Shown piece by piece: positions 954 through 62,909 of a stretch of DNA of 64,000 nucleotides. The notes under the pieces were generated by a model that saw nothing but the letters and a program-made list of their open reading frames with translations, ran no database searches and was not told the DNA's origin. Numbering within the stretch: the stretch's first letter is position 1; each line of letters begins with the position of its first letter. A program made the position numbers and the translations under genes. Origin of the DNA: Macrolepiota albuminosa (Eukaryota > Basidiomycota > Agaricomycetes > Agaricales > Agaricaceae); assembly GCA_027475525.1 (NCBI GenBank), contig JAMWFC010000080.1:496001-560000 (forward strand), written 5' to 3'.

Positions 954-1287
954 TGTTGGGAATTCGTAAAGTCATAGATGTGACAAGTGTATGGTCCTCA
1001 GGGCCACTGGGCTGGCCACCGCTCTGTTTTGTTCGTACGTGTACATATAGCTCGAACATGGACAAAATACCCTTATTTGGTTTATACACAACTGAGGGTA
1101 CGTTATTCATATCTCACTATACACATAAATACTCACCACAAATCATACCTAGATAGTACTTACGTGTATTGATCCAGGTACCTACAATACAGTTTGGTTT
1201 ATACACAACTGAGGGTTAAACTCACGTGTATTTGAATTTGATCTAGGTGTGACTACGCCTGTCGGATTGTCTGTCCCAGTTCCAACA
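954..1287 (+). mobile_element. Solo copia-type LTR
   Basis: The 334-bp segment begins TGTTGGGA and ends CCAACA. It is flanked by the 5-bp duplication TGAGT (949-953 and 1288-1292), so it is an LTR left by recombination. Inside, a 23-base unit ending ACTGAGGG occurs twice (about 1076-1098 and 1194-1216). The same internal layout, and similar length and ends, is found in the LTR at 50289-50623. It is an old, diverged copy. Confidence 0.85.
1098..1152 (+). other. Putative intron inside LTR
   Basis: A 55-nt segment starting GTACGT and ending CCTAG follows the first ACTGAGG unit. The second, downstream unit lacks it: there ACTGAGG is followed by sequence similar to what comes after this segment. 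An imperfect hairpin (ACCCTTATT with ACTGAGGGT) ends at the donor. Divergence makes this the weakest of the copia cases. Confidence 0.45.
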
Positions 1288-2215: not shown

Positions 2216-2492
2216 TGTTTGACTGGGAAAATAGGATGATGTTACCACAACAAACATTATGCCAGGACCACTTTTTATTTCACACTTGGGCACCACCCCA
2301 TCATACTTGAACAATAGTATGAATACACATATATGGATGAGATAGAAATGGCACCCTCAGTCATTTAAACAAGACTGAGGGTGAGCAAAACATTTACTTT
2401 AATTTAGCTACAATTAACTGACTGTAACACTACAGTATTACAACTGATATTGTATTGTATAGATATCTGTGATACAAGTCCGAACTCTAACA
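2216..2492 (+). repeat. 5' LTR of an old copia relic
   Basis: It begins TGTTTGACTGGG and ends CTCTAACA, and is followed by GGTTAATAGC, a decayed form of the copia primer-binding site GGTTATGGGC. It contains the hairpin CCCTCAGTC...GACTGAGGG (about 2351-2378), and the splice-donor-like GTGAGC sits at the hairpin's 3' foot. The matching 3' LTR was not found, so the 5' boundary rests on pattern only. Confidence 0.6.
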
Positions 2493-3098: not shown

Positions 3099-3390
3099 TG
3101 TTACGGATGCTATCCTGTTTGGATCAGTTTTACTATGTGGTCACATGATTAGAACTTAGAAGCATACTCAAGCGACACATCATCCTCAGTTGTTTACTGT
3201 CATCACAACGTTACACTGAGGATGTGAGTATTTCTGTTACTACGTATCAGTTTGTTTCTAATAGAGAATAGTCTCTTGACTATTTACTAGGTATGAAAAA
3301 TAAAGTTGTTTACTGTCATCACGACGTTACACTGAGGATTCTCTTGACTATTTACTAGTCATATCATGGGTTCTAGAGTCTGGCTTAATA
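3099..3390 (+). repeat. 5' LTR of copia element
   Basis: The 292-bp LTR starts TGTTACGG and ends CTTAATA. It contains a tandem unit: about 36 bases ending ACACTGAGGAT at 3188-3223 recur at about 3304-3339, and CTCTTGACTATTTACTAG also occurs twice. The first unit carries an additional 48-nt GT...AG segment that the second lacks. Confidence 0.95.
3224..3271 (+). other. Putative 48-nt intron inside copia LTR
   Basis: The segment starts GTGAGT, has TTCTAAT as a branch-site candidate and ends AATAG. Removing it from the first tandem unit gives ACACTGAGGAT joined to TCTCTTGAC, which is exactly the second unit. The donor lies three bases after a hairpin with arms CCTCAGT and ACTGAGG. The copy in the 3' LTR is at 15525-15572. 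Splicing itself is inferred. Confidence 0.7.
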
Positions 3391-3401
3391 GGTTATGGGC
3401 T
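3391..3401 (+). promoter_or_regulatory. Copia primer-binding site, initiator-tRNA-Met type
   Basis: GGTTATGGGCT immediately follows the LTR. As I remember it, Drosophila copia has the same kind of site, complementary to the anticodon region of initiator tRNA-Met and used as a half-tRNA primer. Related sites follow the LTRs at 30669 and, decayed, at 46852 and 2493. Confidence 0.8.
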
Positions 3402-3541
3402 TCCCTCTCTAGGGTTGCTAGTACTCCGAGTTCCTACCATACGTCACCAGGTCTTATCGTTGGCATTTCTCTGTCTTGTTACTTAGGTCCTTGTTACTCT
3501 GGTCTGTTGCGTTGATCTCGTCTTTTCCTTGGGTCGCCAGC

Positions 3542-4818
3542 ATGTCCAATCCTTTCATCCAGCATACTCAATCGGGTTATCCTGTCCCTGCGCCGGGGGA
3601 CCCTTTGCGGTGGCCTTTTTCGATTGGTGTCCCACCCCAATCCGAATCTTTTTCCCACAATTTACCTCTGCATTTCTTGTCCTCGTCTTCTGCTACAGCT
3701 TTTTCTCACCTTCCATTGCATCCTTTTAAGCGTACACATTACAATAGACCGCATATACCTTCTTCACTTGCAAATTCTTTCGTTCCTCATGCTTTTGATA
3801 CACCTACTCCCGTCTCGTCTACTGTTCCTCCCAATTTTCCAAATTCTTTGCATAACACCTGTTCATCCAAGTAGACCCCAATTTTATAATCTTGCTTCAA
3901 ACTTTCCTTTGAATCAACAACAATATCATCGTCCTTCATCAGCTCCTGCCACGTATTTTTCTCCTTCCCAATCCACACCTCCTCCGCTTCACCCGGATGT
4001 GGTTCCCCCGTTTCATCCTCCACCTCTTGTGGATGTTCTCCATTTTACTCCGCCTTCACCTGCCCCATTTCGTTCCATACCTTTGTCTCGCCCTCCCTCT
4101 GTTTTTCTCTCTGTTTCTTCTCCTGCCCCTGGCATTCCACCTGTGGCGCCGCAGGTTCCTTCTTCTCAACCTCCTCCTGTGGATGGTCCTTCTACCCCCC
4201 CTTTCATATTACCTTATTCTTGGTATCCATACCCTTGTTACTACCCACCTTTTCCTCCTTCCGCACATTCGTTTCCTTTTTCTACTTCTCCTCCTGTCGC
4301 TCCGTCCCCACATTTTTCTTCCTCTGCTCCTGTTGAGCCCCTTTCGGATTCTAAGCTTCCTCTCCTTTCCACCATTCCCCGTTTTAATTCTTCTGCGGAT
4401 TGGGGTTTGTGGATCAATCCTGTGATGGCCCTGATTGATCATATGGGATTGAACGGTCATGTTTGTCCTATTCCATCTCCAGGATCTCCCTATGATTCTA
4501 CCTGCAAGGTTGTGGTCACTACAGCCCCCCCTCCTCATCTTACTCAGGATGCTTCTCGTGCATATGAGATTTTTTGGAAGAATGATAACGTTTGCTCATA
4601 CATTATCTCGGGCAAGTTATCAGCGGAGATTTTCAATTCTCTTCCCCCTGCTTGAGGGGGTCCTCACAATTTTCCCATTCGTACTGCACGCAATCTTCTT
4701 GATTTCCTTCGGAAGCATTTCAGCGTTGGCAGTGCTGCCTCAGCACAGCAAATCAAGGACTCAGTGTTCCATCTTCATTGTGCACCCAATGCCATTCCTT
4801 CTTATGTCCAGGCTTGGT
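3542..4818 (+). pseudogene. Copia gag, frameshifted and split
   Basis: The Gag reading starts at the ATG of 3542, the first in frame after the leader. It is proline/serine-rich at the N-terminus, shifts frame near 3855-3880 and reads on to a Gag core (LPLLSTIPRFNSSADWGLW, MALIDHMGLNGHV). An in-frame TGA lies at 4653-4655. The frame continues to 4818, where the gypsy element is inserted, and resumes at 11315. Gag would form the virus-like particle; this copy cannot make a complete one. Confidence 0.85.
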
Positions 4819-5202
4819 TGTCAGGGGACCCCTCATTCCTTTCTTCTTTCACTCCTTATTTCTTTCACTCTCCTTTCATTCACTTCCTTATTTCTTCTAC
4901 CATTCTCTCATTTTGCTGTTACTACTTCTTCAACACTATCTGTTGGTACTATTCTCAACCTTTGAGGTGCTCTGGTTCTTTAGCTATCACTCAGACAAGT
5001 GTGGGCCCTTCAGCACCGCTCCAGGCTGCTTAGATAAGCCGGAGTTTGCCTTTCTGACTTCTAAAGTCCGGAGTTTTCCTCCCTTGTTTGCACACTTGTT
5101 TGGTTAGTCAATTTTCGAGTTTTTAAGGTTTTGTTGTACTGTACAGTTGTTTCCCACGCTTCAGAGGCCCCAGAAGCGTCCAACCTGGCATAGGGGATCC
5201 CC

Positions 5203-5213
5203 AGACTTGTTCT
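5203..5213 (+). promoter_or_regulatory. Self-primer and likely transcript 5' end
   Basis: AGACTTGTTCT is the exact reverse complement of AGAACAAGTCT at 5340-5350, over 11 nt and no further. In Tf1 the first 11 nt of the mRNA fold back on the primer site, so by analogy transcription should start at about 5203. It directly follows the palindrome at 5193-5202. Confidence 0.75.
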
Positions 5214-5234
5214 CTTTGGATCTCCCTCTGCCAG

Positions 5235-5297
5235 GTGAGTAGCTACCTTGATATTGTCAGTATATATTCTAATACACTTTGGATCTCCCTCTGCCAG
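5235..5297 (+). other. Putative 63-nt intron inside gypsy LTR
   Basis: The segment starts GTGAGTAG, has TTCTAAT about 25 nt before the end, and ends CTGCCAG. Solo LTRs of the same family at 32335-32769 and 61920-62354 lack precisely this segment and read CTGCCAG (or CTGCTAG) joined directly to CTGTGTGACTG. The minus-strand copy at 17367 keeps donor and branch site. The 3' LTR copy is at 11212-11274. An alternative is a tandem duplication of the 21-base flank with secondary loss. Confidence 0.65.
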
Positions 5298-5339
5298 CTG
5301 TGTGACTGAGCCACAGCCTCTAGAGGTCGCCCTTACAGC

Positions 5340-5350
5340 AGAACAAGTCT
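5340..5350 (+). promoter_or_regulatory. Self-priming primer-binding site
   Basis: AGAACAAGTCT lies two bases after the LTR. It is complementary to the LTR segment 5203-5213 and does not begin TGG, as a tRNA-primed site would. The old relative on the minus strand keeps the same site (46199-46209). Confidence 0.8.
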
Positions 5351-5451
5351 CTACATTTCGGTCTGGGAGCCCCCTTCAGCCTGCTTGAGCCCTCTCTTGC
5401 CCCTTTAGGTCCCTCCCCCACTGGATTACTTCCTGCCCCTCTGTTGCTTCT

Positions 5452-6717
5452 ATGACCCAACCAGCCCCCTCAGACACTCCCCTGGACGCTTCTGCCCCTC
5501 AGGATGATGCCTGGGGTCGCTTGCTTGCTCTGGAGACTCAGGTGCAGACCACTCAAGCTTCCCTCACCCTCCACACCACCGAACTTGCTGGATTACGACA
5601 GGCCACAGACACTATCTCCCATTCCCTTCAGGCCCTCTTAGAGCGCCTCCCTCTCACTCCTACCCCTCTCCAGGCACCTCCAGTTAGGGCTGGCACACCC
5701 CCAGTCCCTCGCTTTGGGGCCTCCCCCCCAGTTCATGCCAATATTCCTCGCCCAGCACTCCCAGACGCATTCAATGGTGACCGAGCGATAGGCGAGCGTT
5801 TCCTGCAGTCCTGCATCACCTATATTCAGCTCAGTGGTGAGGCTTTCCCCTCTGACGCTCTCAAAATCGCTTGGGTTCTTTCTTACATGAAGTCTGGGCG
5901 AGCTTCAACATACGCGCTACGAGTCTTTCGACGTCCTGGAGGAGTAGAGAGTTTTGGAAGTTGGGATCAGTTTGAGAAGGAGTTTCGGACAGAGTTCTTC
6001 CCCTTGGACCCTGCTAAGGTGGCAGCCCTCACTCTCCGAGATCCTCATCGATATGGGCAGGGGAAGCGGACCCTAGATGAGTACATCGACTCCTTCAGAG
6101 CTCTTGCTGAACAGGCCTGTTATCCGGATGGTCTTCAGCTCTGTCTCACCTTCCGAGATGGCCTCCTTCCCTCTCTCATGGATCGGATCGACAGCATGGC
6201 TGAGGGACGACCTGATGACACGAGTATCGAGACCTGGTATCAGGTAGCACGTGATCAGTGGCAGCTCATGGAGTTACGACGTGAGCTCCACCGTGGAACT
6301 GCCCCTCGCTCCACTCCACAGGCATCCTTTTCTGCTCGTCATCCCATCCAGCCTTCCCTTCCATTTCGCACTCCACCCCCAGCTCAGGTACCTGCAGCAC
6401 GTCCTCTTCCTTTTGGAGTACCTATGGATGTTGATGCCTCTCGTCAACGTTCCTCCCTTCCTCTCCTCTGCCGTCGCTGTGGAAAGCCTGGTCACTTCGC
6501 TCGGTATTGTCCCCAGGGGTTAGAGGTGCGCTATCTCTCAGCTTCAGAGCAGGAGGAGCTCCTTCTCCAGCTCCTTGCTGCCCGAGATGTTCGAGGAAAC
6601 CCCTCCCCAGATGTACAGACTGAAGCAGAACCCTTGGAGGAGTCCTTGGGTCCTGTGGAAGCTGTAGCAGAACCATCGGATGGGTCCTTTGGTTCGGCAG
6701 GGGAGGGTTTTCAATAG
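5452..6717 (+). CDS. Gypsy Gag polyprotein, 421 aa
   Basis: Gag builds the virus-like particle and packages the RNA. The start is the first ATG after the leader, followed by an uninterrupted 421-codon frame. The N-terminus is proline-rich with a coiled-coil-like stretch (LALETQVQTT, LRQATDTISHSLQALLERL). The capsid core of the Retrotrans_gag type lies at about residues 100-280 (WDQFEKEFRTEFFP, YIDSFRALAEQ). A zinc knuckle, CRRCGKPGHFARYC, lies at about 341-354. It ends at TAG 6715-6717, eight bases before the Pol ATG and in a different frame. The slippery heptamer at 6705-6711 suggests Pol is made as a -1 frameshift fusion. It is intact. Confidence 0.95.
   Translation: MTQPAPSDTPLDASAPQDDAWGRLLALETQVQTTQASLTLHTTELAGLRQATDTISHSLQALLERLPLTPTPLQAPPVRAGTPPVPRFGASPPVHANIPRPALPDAFNGDRAIGERFLQSCITYIQLSGEAFPSDALKIAWVLSYMKSGRASTYALRVFRRPGGVESFGSWDQFEKEFRTEFFPLDPAKVAALTLRDPHRYGQGKRTLDEYIDSFRALAEQACYPDGLQLCLTFRDGLLPSLMDRIDSMAEGRPDDTSIETWYQVARDQWQLMELRRELHRGTAPRSTPQASFSARHPIQPSLPFRTPPPAQVPAARPLPFGVPMDVDASRQRSSLPLLCRRCGKPGHFARYCPQGLEVRYLSASEQEELLLQLLAARDVRGNPSPDVQTEAEPLEESLGPVEAVAEPSDGSFGSAGEGFQ
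6705..6711 (+). promoter_or_regulatory. Predicted -1 ribosomal frameshift heptamer
   Basis: G GGT TTT fits X XXY YYZ in the gag frame and is followed by CAA TAG. Slipping back one base enters the Pol frame, which is open upstream of its ATG. GGGUUUU is, as I recall, the slippery site of barley yellow dwarf virus. The decayed relative on the minus strand has G GAT TTT CAA TAG at 44973-44961, also a valid heptamer. Confidence 0.65.
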
Positions 6718-6725
6718 AGCGACGG

Positions 6726-9700
6726 ATGAGTTGTACGCCTCCGCCGCCTGGTGCTAATCAGTTTACATGTCAATCAGTAGAGTCTTCTAATGTATCGCTC
6801 CCTACTCCTGATTCTCTGACTGAAACTGTAAGCACCCCCTCCGACGTACAAAATACCCCCTTGGTCCAAGCCTCAGCTAAGACTTCTTCTTCTCCTTCTC
6901 CTGTCCGACGACCACGTGTCCCAGCTTGGGAACGACGCCTTCCCCGTCGCTATGTTGTTGCTTCTACTCCCTCTCCCAACTCTCTGCGTCTGAATGTGGA
7001 GATTGAGACAACTGACACTCAGCAGACTCGAAGCGTCATAGCTCTCTTGGACAGTGGTGCTACTGGACTCTTCCTAGACACCCGTTATGTGGAACAACAC
7101 CGGCTCACTACCCGCCCCCTCTCTCACCCTATTCCAGTCTATAACATTGACGGTACGCTCAATGAAGCTGGATCCATCCGCTCAGTGGTGGATTTAGTCC
7201 TTCGTTATCAGACTCATTCTGAGCGTGCAGTCTTTGCAGTTACCAGCCTAGGAAAGCAGGACATGATACTTGGGTTCTCCTGGCTGCGTGATCACAATCC
7301 TGAGATTGACTGGGCCAAGGGTAAGGTGAGCATGAGCCGCTGCCCTCGACGGTGTTCCACATGTGCTAAGGAAGTGAGAGAGGAGCGCAGAGAGTCAGTC
7401 CGTGAGCGTGCCGCTATCCGGGCTTGCCGAGTTGGACACCTCCCCTTTGCAGACCTTGACCTACTGGATCCTCCTCCCTTGGCGTTCCCTTATAGAGAGG
7501 CCCTCTATGAGGACGTTCGAGGTGTAGCGAGTGAAGCCCAGATGGAAGATGGACGCGAGGGTGAATTTGGATGCGCTCCTGACCCAGAGTCTCCAGACGA
7601 GGCTATCGAGACAGGTGATAGGATTTATGCAACTATGTTACGACCTCCACCAAGTGTAGCAGAGATCAGAGCTAGCCAAACTACCTCCCAGCGGCTAGCT
7701 CAGGCATTTGCTGCCAACTCTGCTCCTAAGTCGTTCCGAGATGCGGTTCCTCATCACCTGCAAGACTTTGAGGATGTTTTCTCTAAGGCATCATTTGACT
7801 CCCTGCCAGAGCGTAAGCAGTGGGACCATGCAATTGAGCTTACACCCAATGCTGAGCCCTCTAGCTGCAAGGTCTACCCACTCTCTCCCAGAGAACAGGA
7901 TGAGCTTGATGCCTTTTTGCAGGAGAATTTAGACTCTGGTCGCATCCGTCCCTCAAAGTCTCCGATGGCCTCTCCAGTCTTCTTTATTAAGAAGAAGGAT
8001 GGATCTCTACGTCTGGTTCAGGACTACCGAGTCTTGAATGCGATGACTGTGAAGAATCGCTACCCCTTACCACTCATTTCAGAGCTTGTCAACAACCTCC
8101 GAGGTGCGCGCTACTTTACCAAGTTGGATGTCCGCTGGGGCTACAACAATGTGCGCATCAAAGAAGGAGATGAGTGGAAGGGAGCATTCCGAACAAATCG
8201 TGGACTCTTTGAACCTCTGGTAATGTTCTTTGGCCTCACTAATAGCCCTGCCACCTTCCAGACCATGATGAACGACATTTTCCGAGACCTCATAGCGGAA
8301 GGTGTTGTGTGTGTATACCTCGACGATATTCTCATCTATACCAAGACTCTAGAGGAGCATCGTCGGATTACACGCATCGTACTGGAACGTCTTCGCCAGC
8401 ACCAGCTCTATCTTAAGCCAGAGAAGTGTGAGTTTGAGCAGACTAAGGTTGAATATCTTGGACTGATCATCTCTCATGGAATGGCTGAGATGGACCCAGT
8501 CAAGGTGGCTGGTGTAGCGGAGTGGCCAGAGCCTAAGAACAAGAAGGAGGTTCAGGCCTTCCTGGGTTTTACCAACTTCTACCGGAGGTTTATTCAGGAT
8601 TTCTCACACCATGCCCGGCCCCTCTTCGATCTCACCACTAAGGACACTCCTTGGCACTGGGATGCAGCACAGCAGACAGCCTTTGATGCCCTCAAACAGG
8701 CGGTCACTTCAAAGCCTGTCCTTATATTCCCAGATGATGACTCTCCCTTCCGTGTCGAAGCTGATAGCTCAGATTTTGCTACTGGGGCCGTTCTCTCTCA
8801 ACAGTCAAGGGAGGATGGTAAGTGGCATCCTGTGGCCTTCTACTCCAAGAGTCTCAATGCCGTGGAGCGGAATTATGAGATCCATGATAAGGAGATGCTA
8901 GCTATTATTCGGTCATTTGAGGAGTGGCGACATTTCCTTGAGGGTGCCAGGCATAAATTCGAGGTGTGGACTGATCACAAGAACTTAGAGTACTTTCGGA
9001 CGGCCAAGAAACTCAACCGCCGACAGGCTCGATGGTCCTTGTATCTGGCCAACTTCGACTTCTCTCTGCATCACAAACCGGGACGGAGCATGGGTAAGCC
9101 AGATGCGCTTTCTAGGCGAGCAGACCATGGTTCAGGAGCTAGTGACAATGACAATATTGTACTTCTGAAGCCAGAACTATTTGCTATCCGTGCTCTAGAA
9201 GGTGTGGTTGGCCAGGGAGAAGAAGTGAGCATCCTTCGAGACATCCGACGAGGTAACCGGGAGGGTGCCCAAGAAGATCTGGTAGCCAAGGCTGCCATGG
9301 CCTTGCATGCTCGAGAGAAAGCTGGAGTGAAGTCTGTCCGCACCGACGAGTGGTCTCTGGAGAATGGTCTTCTCACCTTCCGGGGACGCATTTATGTTCC
9401 CAACCTGCCAGACCTCCGGAGGCGGATTGTGGAGCAGCATCATGACTCTCGAGTTGCAGGACATCCTGGCAGATGGAAGACACTGGAGCTGGTTTCGCGG
9501 AATTACTGGTGGCCTCAAATGTCACGGTATATTGGCTCTTACACCTCCACCTGCGATCTTTGCCTTCGGACTAAGCCTCGTCGTCAGCCTCCTATGGGAC
9601 AGCTTCATCCATTGCCTATCCCAGCTGAGCGTTGGAGTGTGGCCTCGGTAGACTTCATTGTTGAGTTACCTGATTCTCATGGATATGATGCGATCATGGT

Positions 9701-10784
9701 GGTAGTGGATCTCTGTGGCAAGCGTGCTCATTTTATTCCAACACACACTACTTGCTCAGCCATGGGCGCTGCCAATCTGTACCGGAAGCATGTCTGGAAG
9801 CTCCATGGGTTGTCAGATGCTTATGTCTCAGACCGCGGACCTCAGTTTGTGGCAGAGTTTACGAGAGAACTGTATCGCCTCCTCCATGTCAAACTCCACA
9901 CCTCCACAGCCTACCACCCCCAGTCTGATGGCCAGACTGAGCGTGTCAACCAGGAGCTAGAACAGTATCTCCGGCTCTTCTGCAATGAACGACAGGATGA
10001 CTGGGACGATCTATTACCAGAGGCAGAGTTCCAGTACAACAACCGTGTACACGCTGCCACCCAGATGTCTCCTTTCCTTCTAGATACTGGTCGACATCCT
10101 CGGATGGGATTTGAGCCTCGTGGACGACCTTCAGAGAATGAAGCTGTCAATGAGTTCATAGATCGGATGAAGGCAGCCCAGGAGGAGGCCAAGGCAGCTT
10201 TAGCTAAGGCAAAGGATGACATGGCCCGCTACTACGATCGTGGACGAACTCCAGCCCCCAAGTACAAGCCTGGAGATCGAGTCTACCTGGATGCCTCTGA
10301 CATTGCCACTACCCGACCTTCTCAGAAGCTCTCTCACCGTCGTCTAGGCCCCTTCCCTATAGTAAGACAGGTAGGCCCACTTGCCTATCGACTCAAGCTG
10401 CCTAGTGGAATGAGTCGACTCCATCCAGTCTTCAATGTGGTGAAGCTTTCTCCAGCCCCAGAGGATCCAATTCCAGGTCGACGTCCACAGCCACCTCCAC
10501 CACCAGTTCTGGTAAACAACCAAGAAGAGTATGAAGTGGAGCGGATCCTAGACAGCCGACTCTTTAGGAATAAGCTTCAGTTCAAGGTCAAGTGGAAGGG
10601 CTATGGAATCGAGGACGTTTCCTGGGAGCCACAAGAGAATGTCCATGCCCCTGCCTTGGTCCGGGAATTCTATCAACAGCATCCTGATGCTCCTCGGGCA
10701 ATCAGAGGCCTCTATTCTCTTTCCAAAGTAGACCAGGCCATCCAGAACTACTTCTATCCAGCACGTCGAGACGCCGCACTCTAG
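6726..10784 (+). CDS. Gypsy Pol polyprotein with chromodomain, 1352 aa
   Basis: This polyprotein replicates and integrates the element. Domain order: aspartic protease with LLDSGATG near residue 108; reverse transcriptase with FIKKKDGSLR, LDVRWGYNN and the catalytic YLDD near 529; RNase H with EADSSDFATG and WTDHKNLEYF; integrase with an HHCC zinc domain (GHP...CDLCLRTK) and a D-D-E core (VDFIVELP, VSDRGPQF, DGQTERVNQELE); a GPF-type module (LGPFPIVRQVGPLAYRLKLP); and a C-terminal chromodomain at about 1268-1322 (YEVERILDSR, FKVKWKGYG, SWEPQENV). Chromodomains usually direct chromoviruses to heterochromatin. No stops or shifts are seen. The ATG at 6726 could also serve for reinitiation after the gag stop. 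Confidence 0.96.
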   Translation: MSCTPPPPGANQFTCQSVESSNVSLPTPDSLTETVSTPSDVQNTPLVQASAKTSSSPSPVRRPRVPAWERRLPRRYVVASTPSPNSLRLNVEIETTDTQQTRSVIALLDSGATGLFLDTRYVEQHRLTTRPLSHPIPVYNIDGTLNEAGSIRSVVDLVLRYQTHSERAVFAVTSLGKQDMILGFSWLRDHNPEIDWAKGKVSMSRCPRRCSTCAKEVREERRESVRERAAIRACRVGHLPFADLDLLDPPPLAFPYREALYEDVRGVASEAQMEDGREGEFGCAPDPESPDEAIETGDRIYATMLRPPPSVAEIRASQTTSQRLAQAFAANSAPKSFRDAVPHHLQDFEDVFSKASFDSLPERKQWDHAIELTPNAEPSSCKVYPLSPREQDELDAFLQENLDSGRIRPSKSPMASPVFFIKKKDGSLRLVQDYRVLNAMTVKNRYPLPLISELVNNLRGARYFTKLDVRWGYNNVRIKEGDEWKGAFRTNRGLFEPLVMFFGLTNSPATFQTMMNDIFRDLIAEGVVCVYLDDILIYTKTLEEHRRITRIVLERLRQHQLYLKPEKCEFEQTKVEYLGLIISHGMAEMDPVKVAGVAEWPEPKNKKEVQAFLGFTNFYRRFIQDFSHHARPLFDLTTKDTPWHWDAAQQTAFDALKQAVTSKPVLIFPDDDSPFRVEADSSDFATGAVLSQQSREDGKWHPVAFYSKSLNAVERNYEIHDKEMLAIIRSFEEWRHFLEGARHKFEVWTDHKNLEYFRTAKKLNRRQARWSLYLANFDFSLHHKPGRSMGKPDALSRRADHGSGASDNDNIVLLKPELFAIRALEGVVGQGEEVSILRDIRRGNREGAQEDLVAKAAMALHAREKAGVKSVRTDEWSLENGLLTFRGRIYVPNLPDLRRRIVEQHHDSRVAGHPGRWKTLELVSRNYWWPQMSRYIGSYTSTCDLCLRTKPRRQPPMGQLHPLPIPAERWSVASVDFIVELPDSHGYDAIMVVVDLCGKRAHFIPTHTTCSAMGAANLYRKHVWKLHGLSDAYVSDRGPQFVAEFTRELYRLLHVKLHTSTAYHPQSDGQTERVNQELEQYLRLFCNERQDDWDDLLPEAEFQYNNRVHAATQMSPFLLDTGRHPRMGFEPRGRPSENEAVNEFIDRMKAAQEEAKAALAKAKDDMARYYDRGRTPAPKYKPGDRVYLDASDIATTRPSQKLSHRRLGPFPIVRQVGPLAYRLKLPSGMSRLHPVFNVVKLSPAPEDPIPGRRPQPPPPPVLVNNQEEYEVERILDSRLFRNKLQFKVKWKGYGIEDVSWEPQENVHAPALVREFYQQHPDAPRAIRGLYSLSKVDQAIQNYFYPARRDAAL

Positions 10785-10795
10785 AGGGGGGGTGA
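10783..10795 (+). promoter_or_regulatory. Polypurine tract of gypsy element
   Basis: AGAGGGGGGGTGA directly precedes the 3' LTR (TGTCA at 10796), where plus-strand DNA priming is expected. Confidence 0.8.
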
Positions 10796-11314
10796 TGTCA
10801 GGGGACCCCTCATTCCTTTCTTCTTTCACTCCTTATTTCTTTCACTCTCCTTTCATTCACTTCCTTATTTCTTCTACCATTCTCTCATTTTGCTGTTACT
10901 ACTTCTTCAACACTATCTGTTGGTACTATTCTCAACCTTTGAGGTGCTCTGGTTCTTTAGCTATCACTCAGACAAGTGTGGGCCCTTCAGCACCGCTCCA
11001 GGCTGCTTAGATAAGCCGGAGTTTGCCTTTCTGACTTCTAAAGTCCGGAGTTTTCCTCCCTTGTTTGCACACTTGTTTGGTTAGTCAATTTTCGAGTTTT
11101 TAAGGTTTTGTTGTACTGTACAGTTGTTTCCCACGCTTCAGAGGCCCCAGAAGCGTCCAACCTGGCATAGGGGATCCCCAGACTTGTTCTCTTTGGATCT
11201 CCCTCTGCCAGGTGAGTAGCTACCTTGATATTGTCAGTATATATTCTAATACACTTTGGATCTCCCTCTGCCAGCTGTGTGACTGAGCCACAGCCTCTAG
11301 AGGTCGCCCTTACA
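10796..11314 (+). repeat. 3' LTR of gypsy element
   Basis: It has the same 519 bases as the 5' LTR as far as I can compare by eye, including the 63-nt GT...AG segment at 11212-11274, and it is followed by the target duplication TTGGT. Confidence 0.97.
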
Positions 11315-14300
11315 TTGGTGCATTGCCATTAATCAATTATCTCAGACTGCGTGGGACTTCACACCATACAAGAGGATCCAGAAATTTATGGATGGTATTC
11401 CGGATCATCGTGCCTTCACCTTTTTACATGAAGAAGTTTGTCGCTCCTGGACAAACAATCCTGAGGGCACTTTCGATTTTTTCACTCTGGCCGACACCAT
11501 TCTTGATACCAATGTTGATGTTCGCCGACACCTTCAGTCATCTGTTTCTCATCACAACAAGACATCGGCTCCTTCGGCTCCTCGCCCTTCTACTTCGAAT
11601 ACCTCTACCTCCCAACACCCCAACATTTCTGATCCTGGCTCTTCTCAGCACATTTCTTCATCTGAGACCCCTCAGGACTCACCTATTTGGCCACACACGC
11701 ATGTAGCTATTTCCAACTCATTGCCTGACGACTCTTCATCCACTGTTCCAATCGTTCCTGACGGTACTGACACATCCGATGTTCTACCTGTTGTAATCAA
11801 TGACAACAACAATGATATGGCTTTTCACCTGTATGATCTACCCGATGGGTCAGCCCCACCACCGTTTCATGCGTTTGTGAGCTCAACTGATCCTGTTGCG
11901 TTGGCATTGATCTCTTCTTGTTTCAATTCTATCCTTGATTCGGGTTGTATGACCCACATCATTTGTGATAAGCGCTGTTTTTGGACCTACAATGAGGACT
12001 TGGCGGTACCGGTAGGCACTGCTAATTGTGGTTGGCTCAACACATTAGCCCAGGAAGAAGTTCGTTTTCGTGTGATTATTGATGGCAAACCCGTTGTGCT
12101 GATACTGTCCGATTGTCTTCATGCTCCCGATGTTCCCATCAACCTTCTCTCTGTCGGTTCTATGACCGAACGTGACCTAGAACTGTGCTTTGAAAAAGAA
12201 GCGACGACCATTTATTTTCCGAAATCCTCCCAACTTTGTGGGAAGTCTTTACAGGTGACGGTTTTGAATCGTCTATCATTCCTTCATTGTGACTTTATTC
12301 TCCCTGGGTTTTCCGGCACTACTTCATTTCCTGCAATTCCTTTTTCATCTCTGAATTTTCCCAAGATTCCGATTACCCCCAGTCTATGGCATTGGCAATT
12401 GGGCCATCCTGCTCGAGACACTACGCGGATTACGCTTACTAAGGGCTGCGCAATTGGGGTTGATTTCAAGGGATCTTTTCACGACGACCACTGCATCCCA
12501 TGTATAATCGGAAAACAACCTGCTCAGCCGTATGACAATTTTCAGCACCGTGCTTCTGGTGTTTGTGAGCTCGTGCACATGAATTCGTGTGGGCCTTTCT
12601 CGACTCAGTTTGCGAACGGACATTCATCTTATTTCCACTCAATTCTCGATGACTATTCAAATTTTGGAAGCACTGCATTATTATCAAAGAAGGATTACGC
12701 ATGTAAGCACTTCAAGGACTTTCAGGCTCACCTTAAACTCAAATCTGGTAACAAAATCATTAATGTCCGTTGTGATGGCGTGAAGGAGTTTGTTGAGGGT
12801 AAATTGAAGAACCATCTGGATAAGAAAGGGATCACAATCCAGTCAACGGCAGCGTATGCCCACCAGCAGAATGGGAAAGCAGAGCGGTATATCCGCACTC
12901 TAGAGGATATGGCACAAACTCTCATGGCTGAGGCGGGTCTACCTATTTCCTTTCTAGGCAATGCTATCCTAACAGCGCAATACCTGCGAAATCGTTTGCC
13001 CACGTCGACACTGCCTGATTTTACAACTCCGTACGAAATCATTGAGGGTCACAAGCCTGACCTTTCCCATCTTTGGGTATGGGGTTGTCAGTGTTTTGTC
13101 CTTTTTCCGAAAGAAACACACCAAAAAGGGAGTACAAGGCATTTTGAAGCTGTCTTTGTCGGATATGAAGAAAATCAAGTTGGATGGCGCATTCAAGACA
13201 TGAATGGACGATATTTTTTCTCGCGCGATGTTGTGTTCAACAAAAATGTGAGAGGCAAATTGCAACCCATGAACATTTCATCTGTGACACAGATTTCCCA
13301 AACACAATCCCCTGCTTTTCAAATCAACTCTCCTGATCCACAATCACCCAAACAATTATCCTCTCCCTTACATTCATCCATCCCAATTGAAACAGTTTCC
13401 ACCTCCCGTCCTCGTCGGAATATTATAATGACCGATGCAGGTCAAGCATTTTTTGAAGATATGCACAAGAAAAATGAACGCCTTGTTAAACTTCATGCGG
13501 ATCAACAAGCGCGGCTCAAACCACATCAAGGTCTCTCCGCTATACTAGATCTCAACACTTTCCAAGATCTCGTTCAATTCTCTACGTCTTTGAGAGAACT
13601 GGTCCATCTTGAGTCTGCAGTTGTCAATGATTACCAAACATATGCACTTTTTGGCCCTGATACACCTAAATTGAAAACCGACAAATCCTTCAATCTCGAT
13701 AAACCTCTGGATAGCTACTATGAAGCACTTGACTGACCGGATGTGTCTGTCTGGCAGGCTGCAATGGAGAGAGAGATAGCCAGTCTCAATCAACAGAAGG
13801 TTTTTACACCTGCTGACTTGCCTCCGGGTCGTAAGGCCATAGGAGTCCGATGGGTTTATGCTTTTAAGCTTAATGCCGATGGATCAATAATCAGAGGAAT
13901 GGAGAAGGCTCGCTTAGTAGCCCAGGGTTTCAGCCAATGACCTGAGGATTACGGTACAACATATGCATTGGTTGCCAAGATGACTAGCATCAGGATTACG
14001 TTGGCTTATGCAGCTATGTATGATCTAGAACTTTTTATGTTCGACGTCAAGACCGCATTCCTAAACGCTCTACTCTCACAAGAAATATATTGTAAGCAGA
14101 TTCCCGGGTTTCCAAATGCTGAACCATCAAAAGTGAATTGAGTTCTACGTGCGCTGTATGGACTCAAACAAGCCTTGCACGAATGGTATGAGGTGATCCG
14201 AGAAGAACTCGAATCATACGGCCTTACTAGATGCAGCGTTGATCATGCAGTCTTTTATGGTCGTTTTTCCACATCACTCGATGCTTCTATACCACCTCTG

Positions 14301-15338
14301 AAAGATGGCCAAGACCTCTTTATTATTATATGTCTCCACGTTGACAATGGGCTAAATGCTACAAATTTGAAGGAACTCTATGATTGGATATTGCAACGCA
14401 TGAGACAACGGTTCGAAGTCAAGGATTCTGGCACAATGGACCTGTACCTTGGCATACGCATTGATCAGGATCAAAAGAAGTTGTGGATATTGCAGAAGGG
14501 ATATATCCTTGATCTCCTAACAACCTATTGGTTACTGGATGCCACTCCGTTATTGTTACCAATTGCAGGAAGAATTGAGGACTTACCAGAACCACCACCA
14601 AACGCTTTGCCAGAGATAAGTGACGACAATATCAAGATCCACTTTCAACGACTCATCAGATCAATCCTATACCTTAGCTTGTGTACTCGACCAGACCTAG
14701 CATTCACAGCAATGTCTTTGGGTCAATATAATTCCAACCCTACTCGAAAACATTTACTGGCGGCGAAATGAGTTCTTTGATACCTCTCCGGCACTAAAAA
14801 CTTTGCGATCGTATACAATTTCTCCAAAACGCCATCCAACCCCCCAGTACGGATGATTTTCCCATCAGATTTTAGTGCAGTCAACGCCGATTGGGCTTCT
14901 GATCCCAGGAATCATTGTAGTGTATCAGGCTATGCCTTTTTCATTTACTCAAGTCTCGTTTCCTGGTCTTCCGTTAAACAACAAACGGTTGCTCTCTCAT
15001 CAACGGAAGCTGAATATATGTCGGTTGCTCATGTGATGCAGGAAGCCTTAGCCATCTGATATTTCATGACATCCTTGGATCTTCCGATACCATGTCCTTT
15101 TCCAATCTTCTGCGATAATAAGGGTGCATTGGATATTGCAAATTCCAATTCCACTGGTACACGCTCGAAACATATTGACATTCGTTACCATTTTATCAGA
15201 CAACACCTTAAGACTGGTTCTTTCGTCACGTCTTGGGTACCAACTTCTGAAATGGTTGCTGATATCTTCACGAAGCCGTTGGGAAAAGAATCTCACTATA
15301 AATTTGTAAAGGCTCTGGGTATCATCTCTTTACCTTAA
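11315..15338 (+). pseudogene. Copia Gag C-terminus and Pol, seven in-frame TGA across gag-pol
   Basis: The Gag reading resumes at 11315 (INQLSQTAWDFTPYK) and runs in the same frame into Pol. Visible parts: protease (ILDSGCMTHI), GAG-pre-integrase (LWHWQLGHP...CIPCIIGK), integrase core (SILDDYSNFG, RCDGVKEF, HQQNGKAERYIRTLEDM), reverse transcriptase (AIGVRWVYAFKL, KARLVAQGFSQ, FDVKTAFLNA, ALYGLKQA) and RNase H (VALSSTEAEYMS, IFCDNKGALDIA, HIDIRYHFIR). In-frame TGA codons lie at 13734, 13938, 14139, 14769, 14778 and 15057, each where the family has Arg or Trp. There is no frameshift over 4 kb, so decay is by point transitions. The natural stop is TAA at 15336. Confidence 0.93.
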
Positions 15339-15399
15339 TTTCTTTGTTCTTTTGATTTCTAATTTTCTTTTCGTAACCACTTCGTCACTGATGGGGTTG

Positions 15400-15691
15400 T
15401 GTTACGGATGCTATCCTGTTTGGGTCAGTTTTACTATGTGGTCACATGATTAGAACTTAGAAGCATACTCAAGCGACACATCATCCTCAGTTGTTTACTG
15501 TCATTACAATGTTACACTGAGGATGTGAGTATTTCTGTTACTACGTATCAGTTTGTTTCTAATAGAGAATAGTCTCTTGACTATTTACTAGGTATGAAAA
15601 ATAAAGTTGTTTACTGTCATCACGACGTTACACTGAGGATTCTCTTGACTATTTACTAGTCGTATCGTGGGTTCTAGAATCTGGCTTAATA
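15400..15691 (+). repeat. 3' LTR of copia element
   Basis: The 292-bp partner of 3099-3390 is followed by the duplication TCACA. The putative intron copy is at 15525-15572. It differs from the 5' LTR by about six transitions, several of CG-to-CA or CG-to-TG type. Confidence 0.95.
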
Positions 15692-44102: not shown

Positions 44103-44952
44103 GATTCTTTACAGTCATTGCATTCAAGACTTGATAGTCCTGAACCAGACATAGAGATCCATTCTTCTTCTTAATGAAGAAGACTGGAGAGGCCATTGGA
44201 GACTTGCTCTCTACACTCCTCTCTAACTTCCTTGGCCATTCTTCTTCTTAATGAAGAAGACTGGAGAGGCCATTGGAGACTTGCTCTCTACACTCCTCTC
44301 TAACTTCCTTGGCACATATGGAACACCGTTGAGGGCAGTGGCTCATACTCACCTTACCCTTGGCCCAGTCAATCTCAGGATTGTAATCATGCAGCCAGGA
44401 GAACCCAAGTATCATGTCCTGCTTTCCTAGGCTGGTGACCACAAAGACAGCATGTTCAGAATGAGTCTGATAACAAAGGACTAAATCCACTACTGAGCAG
44501 ATGGATCCAGCTTCATTGAGCATACCATCAATGTTATAGACTGGAATAGGATGAGAAAGGGGTTGGGTAGTGAGCTGGTGTTGTTCCATGTAATTGGTGT
44601 CCAGGAAGAATCCAGTAGCACCACTGTCCAAGAGAGCTATGATGCTTTGAGTCTGCTGAGTGTCAGTTGTCTCAATCTCCACATTCAGATGCAGAGAATT
44701 GGAAGAAGGAGTGGAGGCAACAACATAGCAATGAGGAAGGCATCATTTCCAAGCTGAGACATGTGGCCATTGGACAGGAGAAGGAGGAGAGGAGGTCTTA
44801 GCTGAGGCTTGGACTAAGGGGGTATTTTGTACATCAGAGGGGGTGCTTACAGCTTCAGTCAGAGAATCAGGAATGGGGAGCAATATATTAGAAGATTCTA
44901 CTGATAGATATGTGAGCCAATTAGCACCAGGTAGGGGAGGCATACAACTCAT
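44103..44952 (-). pseudogene. Gypsy pol relic: protease, with deletion and 77-bp tandem repeat
   Basis: On the minus strand the Pol start is at 44952 (MSCMPPLPGANWL). Protease follows (IALLDSGATGFFLDT, QDMILGFSWL). After CAKEVREE about 565 bp of the intact element is deleted, and the reading joins [13 protein letters not shown] of reverse transcriptase. The junction region is duplicated in tandem (44160-44236 and 44237-44313). Confidence 0.85.
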
Positions 44953-46211: not shown

Positions 46212-46736
46212 TGTAAGGGCAACCTCTGGAGGCTGTGGCTCAGTCACACAGCTAGCAGAGGGAGATCCAAAGTGTATTAGAGTATATACTGACAATATCA
46301 TAATAACTACTCTGGCTCAGTCACACAGCTAGCAGAGGGAGATCCAAAGTGTATTAGAGTATATACTGACAATATCATAATAACTACTTACCTGGCAGAG
46401 GGAGATCCAAAAAGGACAAGTTTAGAGATTCCCTATGCCAGGTTGGATGCTTCTGGGGCCTCTGAATCATGGGAAACAACTGTACAGTACAACAAAACCT
46501 TGAAAACTCGAAAATTGCCTAAATAAACAACTGTACAAACAAGACAGGAAAACTCTGGACTTTGAAAGTTAGAAAGGCAAAGTCTGGCTTATATAAGTGG
46601 TCTGGAAGCAGTGCTGAAGAGCCCACACTTGTCTGAATGATAGCTAAGGAACCAGAGCACCTCAAAGGCTGAGAGTAGTACTAACAGATAGTGTTGAGAA
46701 AATAGAAACAGCAAAGTGAGAGAATAATAGAAGAAA
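46212..46736 (-). repeat. 5' LTR (minus) of gypsy relic, internally duplicated
   Basis: TGTAAGGG at 46212 is the LTR end next to the primer site (46199-46209). About 75 bp, including the LTR-intron region (CAGTCACACAGCTAGCAG through ATAATAACTACT), occur twice in tandem at about 46238-46387. The LTR is split at 46736 by a copia insertion and resumes at 49379-49454, where it ends CTCCTGACA. Confidence 0.88.
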
Positions 46737-46851
46737 TGTTGGGGAGGATTGCAAACACATCAAGCACACATAATCAGTAGCAAGATGATGGGAAAAGCAG
46801 GATATGGATATACCTCAGTTGCTATTACACCGACTGAGTCTGTATCAAACA
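46737..46851 (+). repeat. 5' LTR of deleted copia, spliced form
   Basis: 115 bp, TGTTGGGG...TCAAACA, followed by GATTATGGGCTC, a decayed primer site. ACTGAG is joined directly to TCTGTATCAAACA. The 3' LTR has 57 nt in between. Confidence 0.88.
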
Positions 46852-48499
46852 GATTATGGGCTCTGAGCCACTCAGAATAGTAAACAACTCACTGAGAAAA
46901 CTAGCAACCAAATTGAAATCAAAAATTGAATACAATGTTGCAGAATCCACCACTGTTCCTGCTACCAATGGAGGAAAAGTTTGATGGGTCAAATTAGGCC
47001 ACTTTTAAGACCATTGTCACTGAAGCAGTGTGTGGATGTAGACTATTGAGATATCTGAATGGCACAATAACGAACTACAAAGAGAGCATAGGAAAAGCAG
47101 AAAACAAGTCTGGAGGTGCAGAGATGAGATGGTGAGGAGCTCTCAACTCCACATCCAAGGAATAGACTCAATGCAATGTATATGCACATAGTATAATCAT
47201 TTTAACATCATAAACCTGATAGGTGCTGGAGTGGACATGAAAGGATCCGCAGTGGATGCGTGGACTTTGCTTACCGTCATACACAACACAAAATCTGATT
47301 GAGGGTTAATACATGCTGAAAAAGAACTAAACATGATCAAGTACACAAATAGATCCAATATCAAATTATATTTTAGGGCAATGCATACTGCATGGTCAAA
47401 AGCAAATGACCAGGGGGCAGGGATTACTGATAAACAGTTTAGGATATACATTATCAAATCTATGCCAAGTTCCTGGGCAGCAGTAACTGGCACATTGATG
47501 ATGGAAAAAACATTGGCAAAAGTAATATCAAGACTCACTACACATGCTTTGTTGCTCCATGGACCAAATGTGATAGCTCCATCAAAATCAGTTCAGACAC
47601 TGTCAATACAAATAGACAGACAACGAGGGGACAAAGATAAGCCAATGTATGAGAACTGTAAGCCAACAGAACATACCAAGGAGAAATGCTTTAGAAAAGG
47701 TGGCAGATTGGAAAAACAGTTTCCTGATTGGTGGAAGAAGAACAATAAGACCACTCAAAGCACAATGACGACAATGCCTCAGTCAAACTCCACACCCACC
47801 GCTATGACAAATGCAAGCAGCTCATTACAGGCCAACGTGACAGTAGTATCAGCTAACAACACAAACAACAGTCACTGCTTGGCATTCACAGCAACCACTG
47901 TATCAGAGCCAGGAATGATGCAGAGTGTTACCACATATGCCAATTCAGCAGCAAGCCATTATTTCTTCACAAATAAAGCAGATTTTGTAACATATAGTGC
48001 CCCATCACTTGGGAATATGACAGAATCAACTGCAAAAGAGGGTGAGTTCAAAATACATGGCTGTGGAAAGGTTTGAAAGTGGGTTCAGTATAATGATGAG
48101 ATAACCAAGCTCATATTCAAAAATGCATTACATGCCCCAGATCTAACGCATAATCTGATATCTGTGGGATCTCTGGTGCAAAAAGGAGTTAGAATAGAAA
48201 TTGGCAGAGATAGAGCAACTCTTTTTGCAATAAATGGGATACCTTTTTTGCATTGTTCAATCAATGGAACTATGTTCACAGTCGAATTTGTGGCCCTACT
48301 GCCAATGGCTATGGCAACAATGTTGTTACATCACTCAGTTGATCTTGAGACCTGACACTGATGGTTAGGACATGTGGAGGAGAGCACGTTACAAAGGATG
48401 ATCTGCAAGGAGGTGGTTGATGGATTAGACATAACAAAGATGTCAGTAATGGGGAAATGTGAAGACTGTATAATGGAGAAACATGCACGACAACTATTT
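46852..48499 (+). pseudogene. Copia gag-protease remnant
   Basis: The ATG of the primer site opens MGSEPLRIVNNSL and stops after about 43 codons. The longest open part is 47333-48076, with Gag (YFRAMHTAWSKAND, MPSSWAAVTGTLMMEK), a zinc knuckle that lost its first Cys, and a protease whose DSGA motif reads NSAA, so catalytic Asp is lost. It is not functional. Confidence 0.8.
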
Positions 48500-49155: not shown

Positions 49156-49378
49156 TGTTGGGGAGGATCGCAAATGTGTCAAGCACACGTGATCAGTAGC
49201 AAGATAATGGGGGAAGCAGGATATGGACATATCTCAGTTGTTATTACACCAACTGAGGTATGTTGAACCTTTCTTTGTACAATAGTTACCACGTATGCTA
49301 ATGACATACGTCAGTCTGTATCAAACAGGTAGACTTATAATACATTTATTATTACACCAACTGAGTCTGTATCAAACA
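49156..49378 (+). repeat. 3' LTR of deleted copia, unspliced plus spliced units
   Basis: It begins TGTTGGGG. ACTGAG at 49252-49257 is followed by a 57-nt GT...AG segment, then TCTGTATCAAACA (ending 49327). Next come a short linker starting GGTAGAC and a second unit ATTACACCAACTGAG joined directly to TCTGTATCAAACA. Confidence 0.85.
49258..49314 (+). other. Putative 57-nt intron inside copia LTR
   Basis: It starts GTATGT, has the branch-like GCTAATGAC 12-20 nt before the end and ends ACGTCAG. LTR text up to 49327 (172 bp) minus these 57 nt is 115 bp, exactly the length and layout of the 5' LTR. The donor is at the 3' foot of the hairpin CTCAGTTG...CAACTGAG. Confidence 0.7.
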
Positions 49379-49454
49379 AGAAATAAGGAAATGAATGAAA
49401 GGAGAGTGAAGAAATAGGGAGTGAAAGAAGGAAAAAATGAGGAGTCTCCTGACA

Positions 49455-50288: not shown

Positions 50289-50623
50289 TGTTGGGACTGA
50301 GCGTGCAAAGGCACAAGGCCACCGCGAGCATCAAAGAGACAATGCCACTTTGTACAAAGCCTGGGCCACTAGGGCCATCGGACAAAGAGACAATGACGGA
50401 CGACAAGTATATAGACTAGCTATGGACACAAACACCCTCAGTCGATTACACCAGAGACTGAGGGTGAGTAATTAACCTACTCGTATATTATGGACAACAA
50501 ACTCACGGTACCATAGATAAGCACTTCCGGTGTATTGTCTATAGGTACGAAATACAGTCGATTACACCAGAGACTGAGGATAAGCACTTACGGTGTATTG
50601 TCTATAGGGTATAACTTCTAACA
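50289..50623 (+). mobile_element. Solo copia-type LTR with tandem unit
   Basis: 335 bp, TGTTGGGA...TTCTAACA, with perfect duplication CAAAG (50284-50288, 50624-50628). CAGTCGATTACACCAGAG plus ACTGAGG occurs at 50440-50463 and again near 50552, each time followed by ATAAGCACTT(C/A)CGGTG, directly in the second unit and after 53 additional nt in the first. Confidence 0.93.
50464..50516 (+). other. Putative 53-nt intron inside copia LTR
   Basis: It starts GTGAGTAATT, has CAAACTCAC as a weak branch candidate and ends ACCATAG. Removing it yields ACTGAGG joined to ATAAGCACTT, the exact text of the downstream unit. An 8-bp hairpin (CCCTCAGT, ACTGAGGG) ends at the donor. Confidence 0.7.
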
Positions 50624-62629: not shown

Positions 62630-62909
62630 CACTGCTGATACTCAAAAGTGTTTCTAATAGAAAAAGTGTAAAAGAAAGCTGTTATGCTATTTCTGATGTA
62701 TTAATTTTCCATAAAAAGAGTCATTTAACAAAGAAAAGTGCCTTTTTCTTTTGAAAATTGGCACATTGAAAATTGCATAACAGCTTTTTTTTTGAAGTCA
62801 TTTAACAAAGAAAAGTGCCTTTTTCTTTTGAAAATTGGCACATTGAAAATTGCATAACAGCTTTTTTTTTGAATTTTTCCAATAGAAACACAATTCAGTG
62901 CTAGCAGTG
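62630..62909. mobile_element. Second copy of the foldback MITE
   Basis: It begins CACTGCTG and ends GCTAGCAGTG, with arms matching the element at 28704-28908 (GTTTCTAATAGAAAAAGTGT on the left against AATAGAAACAC on the right). A 77-bp internal segment is duplicated in tandem (about 62721-62797 and 62798-62874). Confidence 0.7.

Follow-up and report, generated by a model that had tools for sequence, protein, structure and literature searches.

Copia-type LTRs of Macrolepiota albuminosa appear to hold an intron together with a spliced copy of the same leader sequence

The long terminal repeats (LTRs) of copia-type retrotransposons in the Macrolepiota albuminosa genome contain a segment with the signals of a spliceosomal intron, followed by a second unit that repeats the flanking sequence without the segment. 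Their order can be read as U3 - E1 - intron 1 - E2 - spacer - E1'E2' - U5, where E1, intron 1, and E2 make up unit 1 and E1'E2' is unit 2. The sequence supports well that intron 1 is an intron, that unit 2 represents the spliced 5' end of the RNA, that the two units were alike when an element inserted, and that a stem next to the predicted transcription start covaries. We see an even chance that these parts add up to a general copia LTR design in this genome, which would store an unspliced and a spliced leader side by side, build splicing into reverse transcription, and tell the two RNA ends apart by a hairpin that the start site splits.

Copia-type LTRs in the window

The window is the whole stretch of 64,000 nucleotides that was analyzed. 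The first-pass annotation had placed GT...AG segments in copia LTRs at 954, 3099/15400, 49156, and 50289, each followed by a unit without the segment, and these coordinates check (Table 1). As it had also noted, unit 2 matches unit 1 minus the segment in the LTRs at 3099, 49156, and 50289, where the border is fixed to 1 to 3 positions. In the LTR at 954 the units have diverged and ungapped scans set the border 4 to 5 nt off; GT...AG fits at 1098-1152, another GT...AG lies at the scanned border by chance, and the border counted in the survey is 4 nt from the preferred one. Beyond the earlier annotation, the window holds a spliced 5' LTR (46737-46851) and an intron-bearing LTR with one unit (2359-2492). 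The LTRs at 46737 and 49156 belong to one truncated copia and are unlike, the 5' LTR having the spliced form and the 3' LTR the intron plus the spliced copy.

Table 1. Coordinates of the copia-type LTRs, their parts, and the gypsy segment in the window
Feature	Position	Strand	Remark
Copia element, 5' LTR	3099-3390	+	3' LTR 15400-15691, TSD TCACA, copia pol domains inside
U3 hairpin arm (..CATCCTC)	3178-3187	+	Pairs with donor side of E1
Unit 1 exon 1 (E1)	3188-3223	+	Starts at predicted transcription start; homology step at A of CTC/AGT
Intron 1, GTGAGT...AATAG, 48 nt	3224-3271	+	
Unit 1 exon 2 (E2)	3272-3290	+	Ends AG/GTA
Spacer GTATGAAAAATAA	3291-3303	+	Putative donor 2, poly(A)-signal-like; putative function
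Unit 2 (E1'E2'), spliced copy	3304-3358	+	Matches unit 1 minus intron
3' LTR: unit 1 (intron 15525-15572, 48 nt), spacer, unit 2	15489-15659	+	
Solo copia-type LTR	954-1287	+	TSD TGAGT
Parts of LTR 954	E1 1075-1097, intron 1098-1152 (55 nt), E2 1153-1177, spacer 1178-1190, unit 2 1191-1246	+	
Solo copia-type LTR	50289-50623	+	TSD CAAAG, TATA 50408
Parts of LTR 50289	E1 50440-50463, intron 50464-50516 (53 nt), E2 50517-50544	+	
Further parts of LTR 50289	Spacer 50545-50555, unit 2 50556-50607	+	
Truncated copia 3' LTR	49156-49380	+	Exact end uncertain
Parts of LTR 49156	E1 49236-49257, intron 49258-49314 (57 nt), E2 49315-49328, unit 2 49344-49380	+	
5' LTR of the 49156 element	46737-46851	+	U3 followed by intronless E1E2, adjoining GATTATGGGC, a PBS-like stretch
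R/U5 part of one-unit copia-type LTR	2359-2492	+	E1 2359-2380, intron 2381-2435, E2 2436-2462, no unit 2
Gypsy LTR segment, 63 nt, GTGAGT...CCAG	5235-5297	+	Intron status ambiguous

The window elements are otherwise ordinary copia retrotransposons, two by their domains and three by their ends, and the LTR design is the new part. Element 3099-15691, interrupted by a nested chromodomain gypsy, has copia pol domains inside, with PF22936 and PF25597 above their cut-offs in 11388-13736; PF13976 in the same region and PF14223 in 47333-48076 are both below their own cut-offs. The domain search covered two window elements, and all further loci are classed as copia-type by the structure of their LTRs. 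TG... LTR ends with 5-bp target site duplications (TSDs) are found at 954, 50289, and 3099/15400. Right after the LTR end, several loci have GGTTATGGGC(C), a putative primer binding site (PBS) of the half-tRNA(iMet) type. Scanning the 64-kb window for tRNAs and Rfam families gave no matches.

The window also contains a host gene on the minus strand (57121-58008), for which the protein search returned two homologues, one being a Termitomyces protein with 53% identity. Contig C66 holds near copies of several window stretches (C66:114085, 191476, and 203027), so the assembly may hold both haplotypes of a dikaryon in places; C66 and C67 look like homologous haplotypes, and their copies may be allelic. 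Head-to-tail duplications with a period of 77 nt occur in unrelated sequence at 62719-62872 and 44159-44312, both exact, and at 46212-46389 of the window, as well as in the loci L033, L035, L097, L105, and L141. These are very likely joins from an assembly k-mer of 77, and they produce false extra repeat units.

Genome survey of two-unit LTRs

The survey covered the genome assembly of 100.1 Mb in 129 contigs. Loci were collected by similarity searches with the four window LTRs and by a hairpin pattern around the donor, CCTCAGT...ACTGAGGGTR, which has 732 forward and 728 reverse matches in the genome, compared to 1 and 1 for the backwards control; the pattern is palindromic, so that one place is counted on both strands. 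The loci L001-L088 comprise 8 of 42, 30 of 43, 30 of 39, and 20 of 41 matches of the four similarity searches, L089-L142 are the pattern places on contigs C1, C2, and C6 among the matches listed, minus loci already taken and with some trimmed to avoid overlap, and L143-L162 were hand-picked among the matches listed. The six window LTRs and these loci, with four duplicates left out, gave 144 stretches, which were scanned for the arrangement A-insert-B...A'B'.

The scan yielded 105 two-unit loci with the hairpin exon, from which one-unit, cut, and decayed copies are absent: 26 of the 54 loci L089-L142, 11 of the 20 loci L143-L162, and 68 others. They represent 93 distinct sequences, with eleven groups of identical ones that are mostly the two LTRs of one element; L032-L034 have the same sequence. 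Depending on the analysis, families were defined by intron identity at 72%, 75%, or 65%. The splice signals were studied in 44 families at 75%, covering 103 of the 105 loci (954 and L035 left out), the E2 tests in 42 of these 44 (L112 and L154 have no AGGT there), and the stem covariation in 17 families at 65%, covering 101 of the 105 loci (954, L035, L086, and L155 left out).

The first-pass annotation had asked whether the segments respect GT...AG borders across the LTRs of the genome, and the copia segments do. Within the allowed slide, GT...AG stands at the junction in 102 of the 105 two-unit loci, with segments of 48 to 70 nt, whereas shifting the border by 1 to 12 nt either way gives GT...AG in 0 or 1 of 105 at each shift, which rules out a chance occurrence. 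The exceptions are L017 and L053, with a changed AG, and L145, where the border was set one base off.

Intron 1 carries the signals of a spliceosomal intron

Beyond the GT...AG borders, the donor has G at +5 in 42 of the 44 families, the insert ends in TAG or CAG in 41, and its length lies between 48 and 70 nt. CTNAY is the branch motif, and it is found 9 to 40 nt before the AG in 42 of the 44 families, compared to a mean of 14 and a maximum of 23 in shuffled sequences; a control in U3 gave 13 of 44, compared to 11.7 by shuffling. The interior of the intron differs strongly between families, and the donor, branch motif, and acceptor are conserved.

Introns of the host chaperonin (CCT) genes served for comparison. 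By reading frame and profile spacing, 18 introns were placed from 20 gaps, of which 2 had no candidate and 7 had more than one. Sixteen of the 18 are 46 to 70 nt long, 17 end in TAG or CAG, and 12 have CTNAY, compared to 5.3 by shuffling; G at +5 is found in 12, a donor count that is flattered, since the choice among candidates favored consensus donors. The proposal that the copia segments are spliceosomal introns just past the transcription start is thus strongly supported by the GT...AG borders, the branch motif, the host-like signals, and the position of unit 2 at the predicted start, and we consider intron 1 almost certainly real.

Unit 2 very probably corresponds to the spliced 5' end of the RNA

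The homology between the two units starts at the A of CTC/AGT, where agreement rises from 20 of 44 families at -1 to 43 of 44 at +1. Upstream, the units agree in 3 to 21 of the 44 families at each of 14 positions, compared to 38 to 44 at the first ten positions downstream. Relative to that A, a TATA motif is found between -37 and -27 in 28 of 43 families, compared to 1 and 0 of 43 in two neighboring windows, and is absent before unit 1 in the other 15. A transcription start in unit 2 was considered and rejected, since TATA precedes unit 2 in 3 of 44 families. At the other side, the match between the units ends at an AG, with its last two bases shared in 41 and 35 of 42 families, followed by 28, 31, and 8 at the next three positions. 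Unit 2 therefore begins at the predicted transcription start, passes over a clean splice junction, and stops where E2 ends. It very probably copies the 5' end of the RNA as it is after splicing.

The units within one LTR are far more alike than those of different families: unit 1 and unit 2 have a mean identity of 97% (median 100%, minimum 74%; 42 families), compared to 59% between families (861 pairs). Comparing 22 pairs of LTRs, which are disjoint loci and not independent families, and two of which use the two LTRs of one element, we found 170 substitutions mirrored in both units, 24 confined to unit 2, 20 confined to unit 1, and 12 others. The mirrored changes come mainly from the 8 more distant pairs, with 141 compared to 9 one-unit changes; in the 14 closest pairs, one-unit changes exceed mirrored ones (35 compared to 29), as expected if changes in a single unit are mostly mutations after insertion. 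Between L014 and L030, an indel is also mirrored in both units.

The two LTRs of one element allow differences present at insertion to be separated from later ones. The comparison covered 14 elements with two units in both LTRs, paired by contig, strand, and distance; L076/L080 is not among them, nor is L077/L079, whose LTRs do not belong to one element. Of 682 unit positions, 1 differs between the units in both LTRs, and this one lies in the window pair 3099/15400. A further 13 unit differences are private to one LTR, and the LTRs differ at 84 of 3,632 positions. The units were thus identical, or nearly so, when each element inserted. For copia, the genome survey strongly supports the suggestion that spliced RNA has been fed back into the LTR. 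Given that the two units already matched when the elements inserted, this feedback seems to belong regularly to the cycle and not to be an occasional event. A regular renewal of unit 2 through reverse transcription is what we consider probable from these comparisons.

A predicted hairpin across the start site

U3 ends in bases that can pair with the last part of E1 and the first part of the donor. With the C of CTGAG taken as position 0, the stem is paired at positions 6, 7, and 8 in 17, 16, and 13 of the 17 families, compared to permutation means of 8.0, 11.1, and 5.8 and maxima of 14, 16, and 12 (5,000 permutations). Position 6 is kept with four kinds of base pair (CACCC/GGGTG, CAGCC/GGCTG, CATCC/GGATG, and ATACC/GGTAT), and positions 5 to 13 jointly have 91 pairs, compared to 64.9 ± 5.4 with a maximum of 87 in the permutations. 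Positions 0 to 5 are invariant and therefore uninformative. Positions 9 to 13 are paired in 6, 7, 8, 3, and 4 of the 17 families, near the permuted rate, so that the stem covers only the first donor bases. In the additional hairpin families of L144, L148, L149, L150, and L160, the loops are longer and the donors lie two bases further on (GAGGCT/GTAAGT, GAGGAT/GTAAGT, and GAGGTG/GTAAGC), and some of the stems extend into the donor.

The 5' arm lies upstream of the predicted transcription start, so the full stem would form only in the 3' copy within the RNA. In folding predictions for 43 of the 44 families, the unpaired probability of the donor is 0.30 when the sequence begins at +1, 0.14 with 40 nt of U3 added, and 0.27 with shuffled U3. 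Access to the donor is lower with U3 in 35 of the 43 families and behaves the opposite way in 8; with shuffled U3 it is lower in 28. Even when U3 is left out, the GT of the donor is paired for the most part (mean unpaired probability 0.19), so the folding counts as support and not as proof. Taking covariation and folding together, we find it moderately likely that the donor in the 3' copy is hidden by U3.

Alternatively, the donor might act mainly as a U1 site that silences a poly(A) signal located in the spacer, close to the promoter, in the manner of foamy virus, with splicing and the spliced copy being side effects. By eye the spacers do resemble poly(A) signals, and the pairing of the U3 arm with the donor region in the 3' copy alone, for which foamy virus is a precedent, would suit such a role. 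Yet U1 binding alone would call for neither the complete intron that is kept, branch motif and acceptor included, nor the renewal of unit 2 in spliced form, and as the main role of the donor we regard this as rather unlikely. It can hold alongside a renewal of unit 2, the two being compatible.

A possible second intron

Splicing of intron 1 alone was rejected as a sufficient account of the cycle: by reasoning, it would erase the intron or add a unit in each round, and among the 105 loci only L112 has three units. A second intron made up of the spacer and unit 2 is suggested by the bases after E2, where A stands at +3 (GTA) in 41 of the 42 families, compared to 8 of 42 after unit 2; the G and T of this GTA were required by the search. 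From the putative donor after E2 to the AG of unit 2, the distance is 50 to 74 nt in 41 of the 42 families. CTNAY lies 12 to 28 nt before this AG in 22 of 42 families, compared to a shuffled mean of 5.7 and a maximum of 14, and 9 to 40 nt before it in 23 of 42, compared to 10.5 and a maximum of 20. The second donor has G at +5 in only 13 of 42 families, and the AG of unit 2 is followed by G in 28 and by T in 31. On these signals we lean slightly towards the presence of this intron.

If real, its removal would give E1E2-U5, equal to unit 2 plus U5, so that strong-stop cDNA would fit unit 2 and the number of units would stay constant. A jump of the polymerase from E2' to E2 also gives E1E2-U5 and can replace the second splice. 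In L043, L047, and L054, unit 2 appears to reach the LTR end, so that the G of the AG at the end of the putative second intron is supplied by the PBS, as its first base; in a 3' LTR of the 49156 family that stands before other DNA, this AG is missing unless the flank starts with G.

Proposed replication cycle

Taken together, the observations can be arranged into a cycle that we consider likely as a whole, with splicing, start, and poly(A) sites being predictions from sequence. Transcription would begin with the first nucleotide of E1. Near its 5' end, the RNA would lose intron 1 by splicing, and the spacer and unit 2 would be removed, probably as a second intron from E2/GTA to the final AG of unit 2, so that the resulting leader would be E1E2-U5. 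At the 3' end, the last ~10 nt of U3 would form base pairs with the final part of E1 and the first bases of the intron 1 donor, hiding the donor, and the intron would be kept. Minus-strand strong-stop cDNA made on the spliced leader would end in E1E2 and could anneal to the unit 2 that lies close to the RNA's 3' end. Its extension through the spacer, E2, the intron, and E1 into U3 would then rebuild the full LTR. The new unit 2 would reproduce unit 1 of the parent in spliced form, and the intron would survive.

Variant LTRs and an alternative, one-time origin of unit 2

A motif count found exactly one further copy of the E1 end, and hence two units, in 102 of the 105 loci. Only L112 was accepted as having three units, the extra unit of L141 being like the 77-nt assembly duplications and the second count in L030 looking spurious. 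One-unit LTRs with the intron account for about 10 of 54 loci by eye (L093, L098, L100, L106, L113, L118, L119, L120, L131, and L135). Intronless one-unit LTRs were sought among the collected loci with exact 18-nt junction words, giving 5 matches at three places: C124 (L012 and L021, overlapping), C66 (L063), and the window at 46737-46851 (also L066). Unlike 5' and 3' LTRs in one element are seen in L017/L100, L117/L118, on C62, and in the window pair 46737/49156. The 5' LTRs of the 49156 family that stand before a PBS have two units (L043, L047, and L054), the intron and one unit (L055 and L057), or the fully spliced form (the window copy and L063). Recombination between the repeats yields the same products here as splicing does, so the forms cannot tell one from the other. 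One-unit, intronless, and unlike LTRs are not predicted directly by the renewal of unit 2. A search for the inverted order, with the intron in unit 2, gave 14 raw matches, which by eye are LTRs on the opposite strand, 77-nt duplications, and other internal repeats, and none fits.

Some of the variants would suit another history, in which intron 1 is real but unit 2 arose a single time from the spliced RNA of an ancestor, the later likeness of the units being due to recombination or reverse transcriptase jumps between the repeats, with no intron 2. The one-unit LTRs L100, L118, and L135 and the intronless LTRs have forms that fit repeat-mediated deletion, as does the three-unit L112, and the jump from E2' to E2 during strong-stop synthesis would supply the same leader. 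Conversion between the repeats would, however, spread or delete the intron, yet unit 1 has it, its GT...AG intact, and unit 2 lacks it in 102 of 105 loci. The constancy of two units in 102 of 105 and the 13 of 14 LTR pairs without a unit difference from before insertion also argue against a single event, which we judge unlikely. That the segments are instead a conserved insert, such as a protein-binding or promoter element carried by one of two tandem repeats, is very improbable: the stem is palindromic in DNA too, but donor, branch motif, and acceptor are kept while the rest of the segment varies, the lengths are those of host introns, and the spliced copy starts at the predicted transcription start.

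The gypsy segment

The first-pass annotation had described a 63-nt segment, present and absent, in a gypsy family. Both forms are indeed in the window. The segment stands at 5235-5297, again in the 3' LTR (from 11212), and on the minus strand in copies near 17486 and 46408, and it is absent at 32713 and near 61976; its reading as an intron is ambiguous. A donor, CTAAT, and AG are present, but there is no second unit, and the last 20 nt equal the preceding 20 nt (5215-5234). The borders therefore slide over 20 positions, which makes GT...AG weak evidence here. A gain by duplication or a loss by deletion between the repeats is as likely as splicing, and the idea of an intron common to Ty1 and Ty3 families is not borne out, as the repeat explains the gypsy copies equally well.

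A genome query with the segment retrieved 40 near-identical copies with it (40 scored among 1,835 candidates), and a query without it retrieved 40 copies without a gap of that size (40 scored among 2,434); each query finds its like, so that no frequency follows. We do not claim a mechanism common to copia and gypsy: by eye, the repeats at the exon end and the intron end differ by 1 to 2 nt in two of three window copies, and these differences are not mirrored. The chromodomain gypsy family (4819-5337/10796-11314) looks like a recent burst, with 35 of the 40 scored LTR pieces of 255 nt sharing the top score at 100% identity.

Significance and comparison with known systems

An element that is copied by reverse transcription from spliced RNA should lose its introns, and such loss is classically taken as proof that an RNA intermediate existed. 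In this genome, many LTR families keep a full intron in the part of the RNA that is reverse transcribed first, and the anatomy of the LTR would explain how. If true, the cycle offers a way for spliceosomal introns to persist in retroelements, being renewed from the 3' end in each round, with the spliced copy as a landing site for spliced strong-stop cDNA. It would be a testable answer to how an element with a spliced leader still copies itself faithfully, it parallels the foamy virus finding on U3, and it would leave a natural record of the 5' ends of spliced RNA. LTR annotation, LTR dating, and the prediction of transcription starts in such fungi would need to account for the design. Among the open-licence papers listed for this subject, we found no description of a complete intron in an LTR or of a spliced R copy beside it; subscription journals, preprints, or papers further down the lists might hold one. 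One literature lead proved false, judging by the part of that source that was available (PMC5542766).

Introns can be gained by tandem duplication at AGGT. Such a gain fits the 63-nt gypsy segment, whose last 20 nt duplicate the preceding exon end, but not the copia LTRs, where the border slides by 1 to 3 nt and the intron is not a repeat of its flank.

The introns of the retrotransposons Ogre and EVADE lie in the internal region, whereas the copia intron described here is inside the LTR. According to the available part of the source, Ogre and EVADE are LTR retrotransposons with functional introns that serve to make subgenomic RNAs (PMC12786077).

An engineered arrangement also places a splice signal in an LTR. 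From what is available of the source, split-intron retroviral vectors have a splice donor at the U3/R border that is copied to the 5' LTR by reverse transcription (PMC3182074). As far as that part goes, they are unlike the copia LTRs in being engineered, in having the acceptor outside the LTR, and in not being meant to keep the intron over further cycles. Such vectors were reportedly the work of Ismail et al. in 2000.

The closest analogue is foamy virus (Spumaretrovirinae), in which, as far as the accessible part of the source goes, the upstream U3 tells the two RNA ends apart, the principle proposed here for the copia LTRs. Its donor splices into the viral body. In the part of the paper that is available, the major splice donor is placed in R and so in both RNA ends, and SHAPE data show that the U3 bases -13 to -1 change the fold of the 3' LTR and reduce access to the donor; a complete LTR intron or a spliced copy of R is not described in that part (PMC3694450). 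In the copia LTRs, by comparison, donor, intron, and acceptor all lie inside the LTR with the spliced copy behind them, and the host is a fungus and the element a copia retrotransposon.
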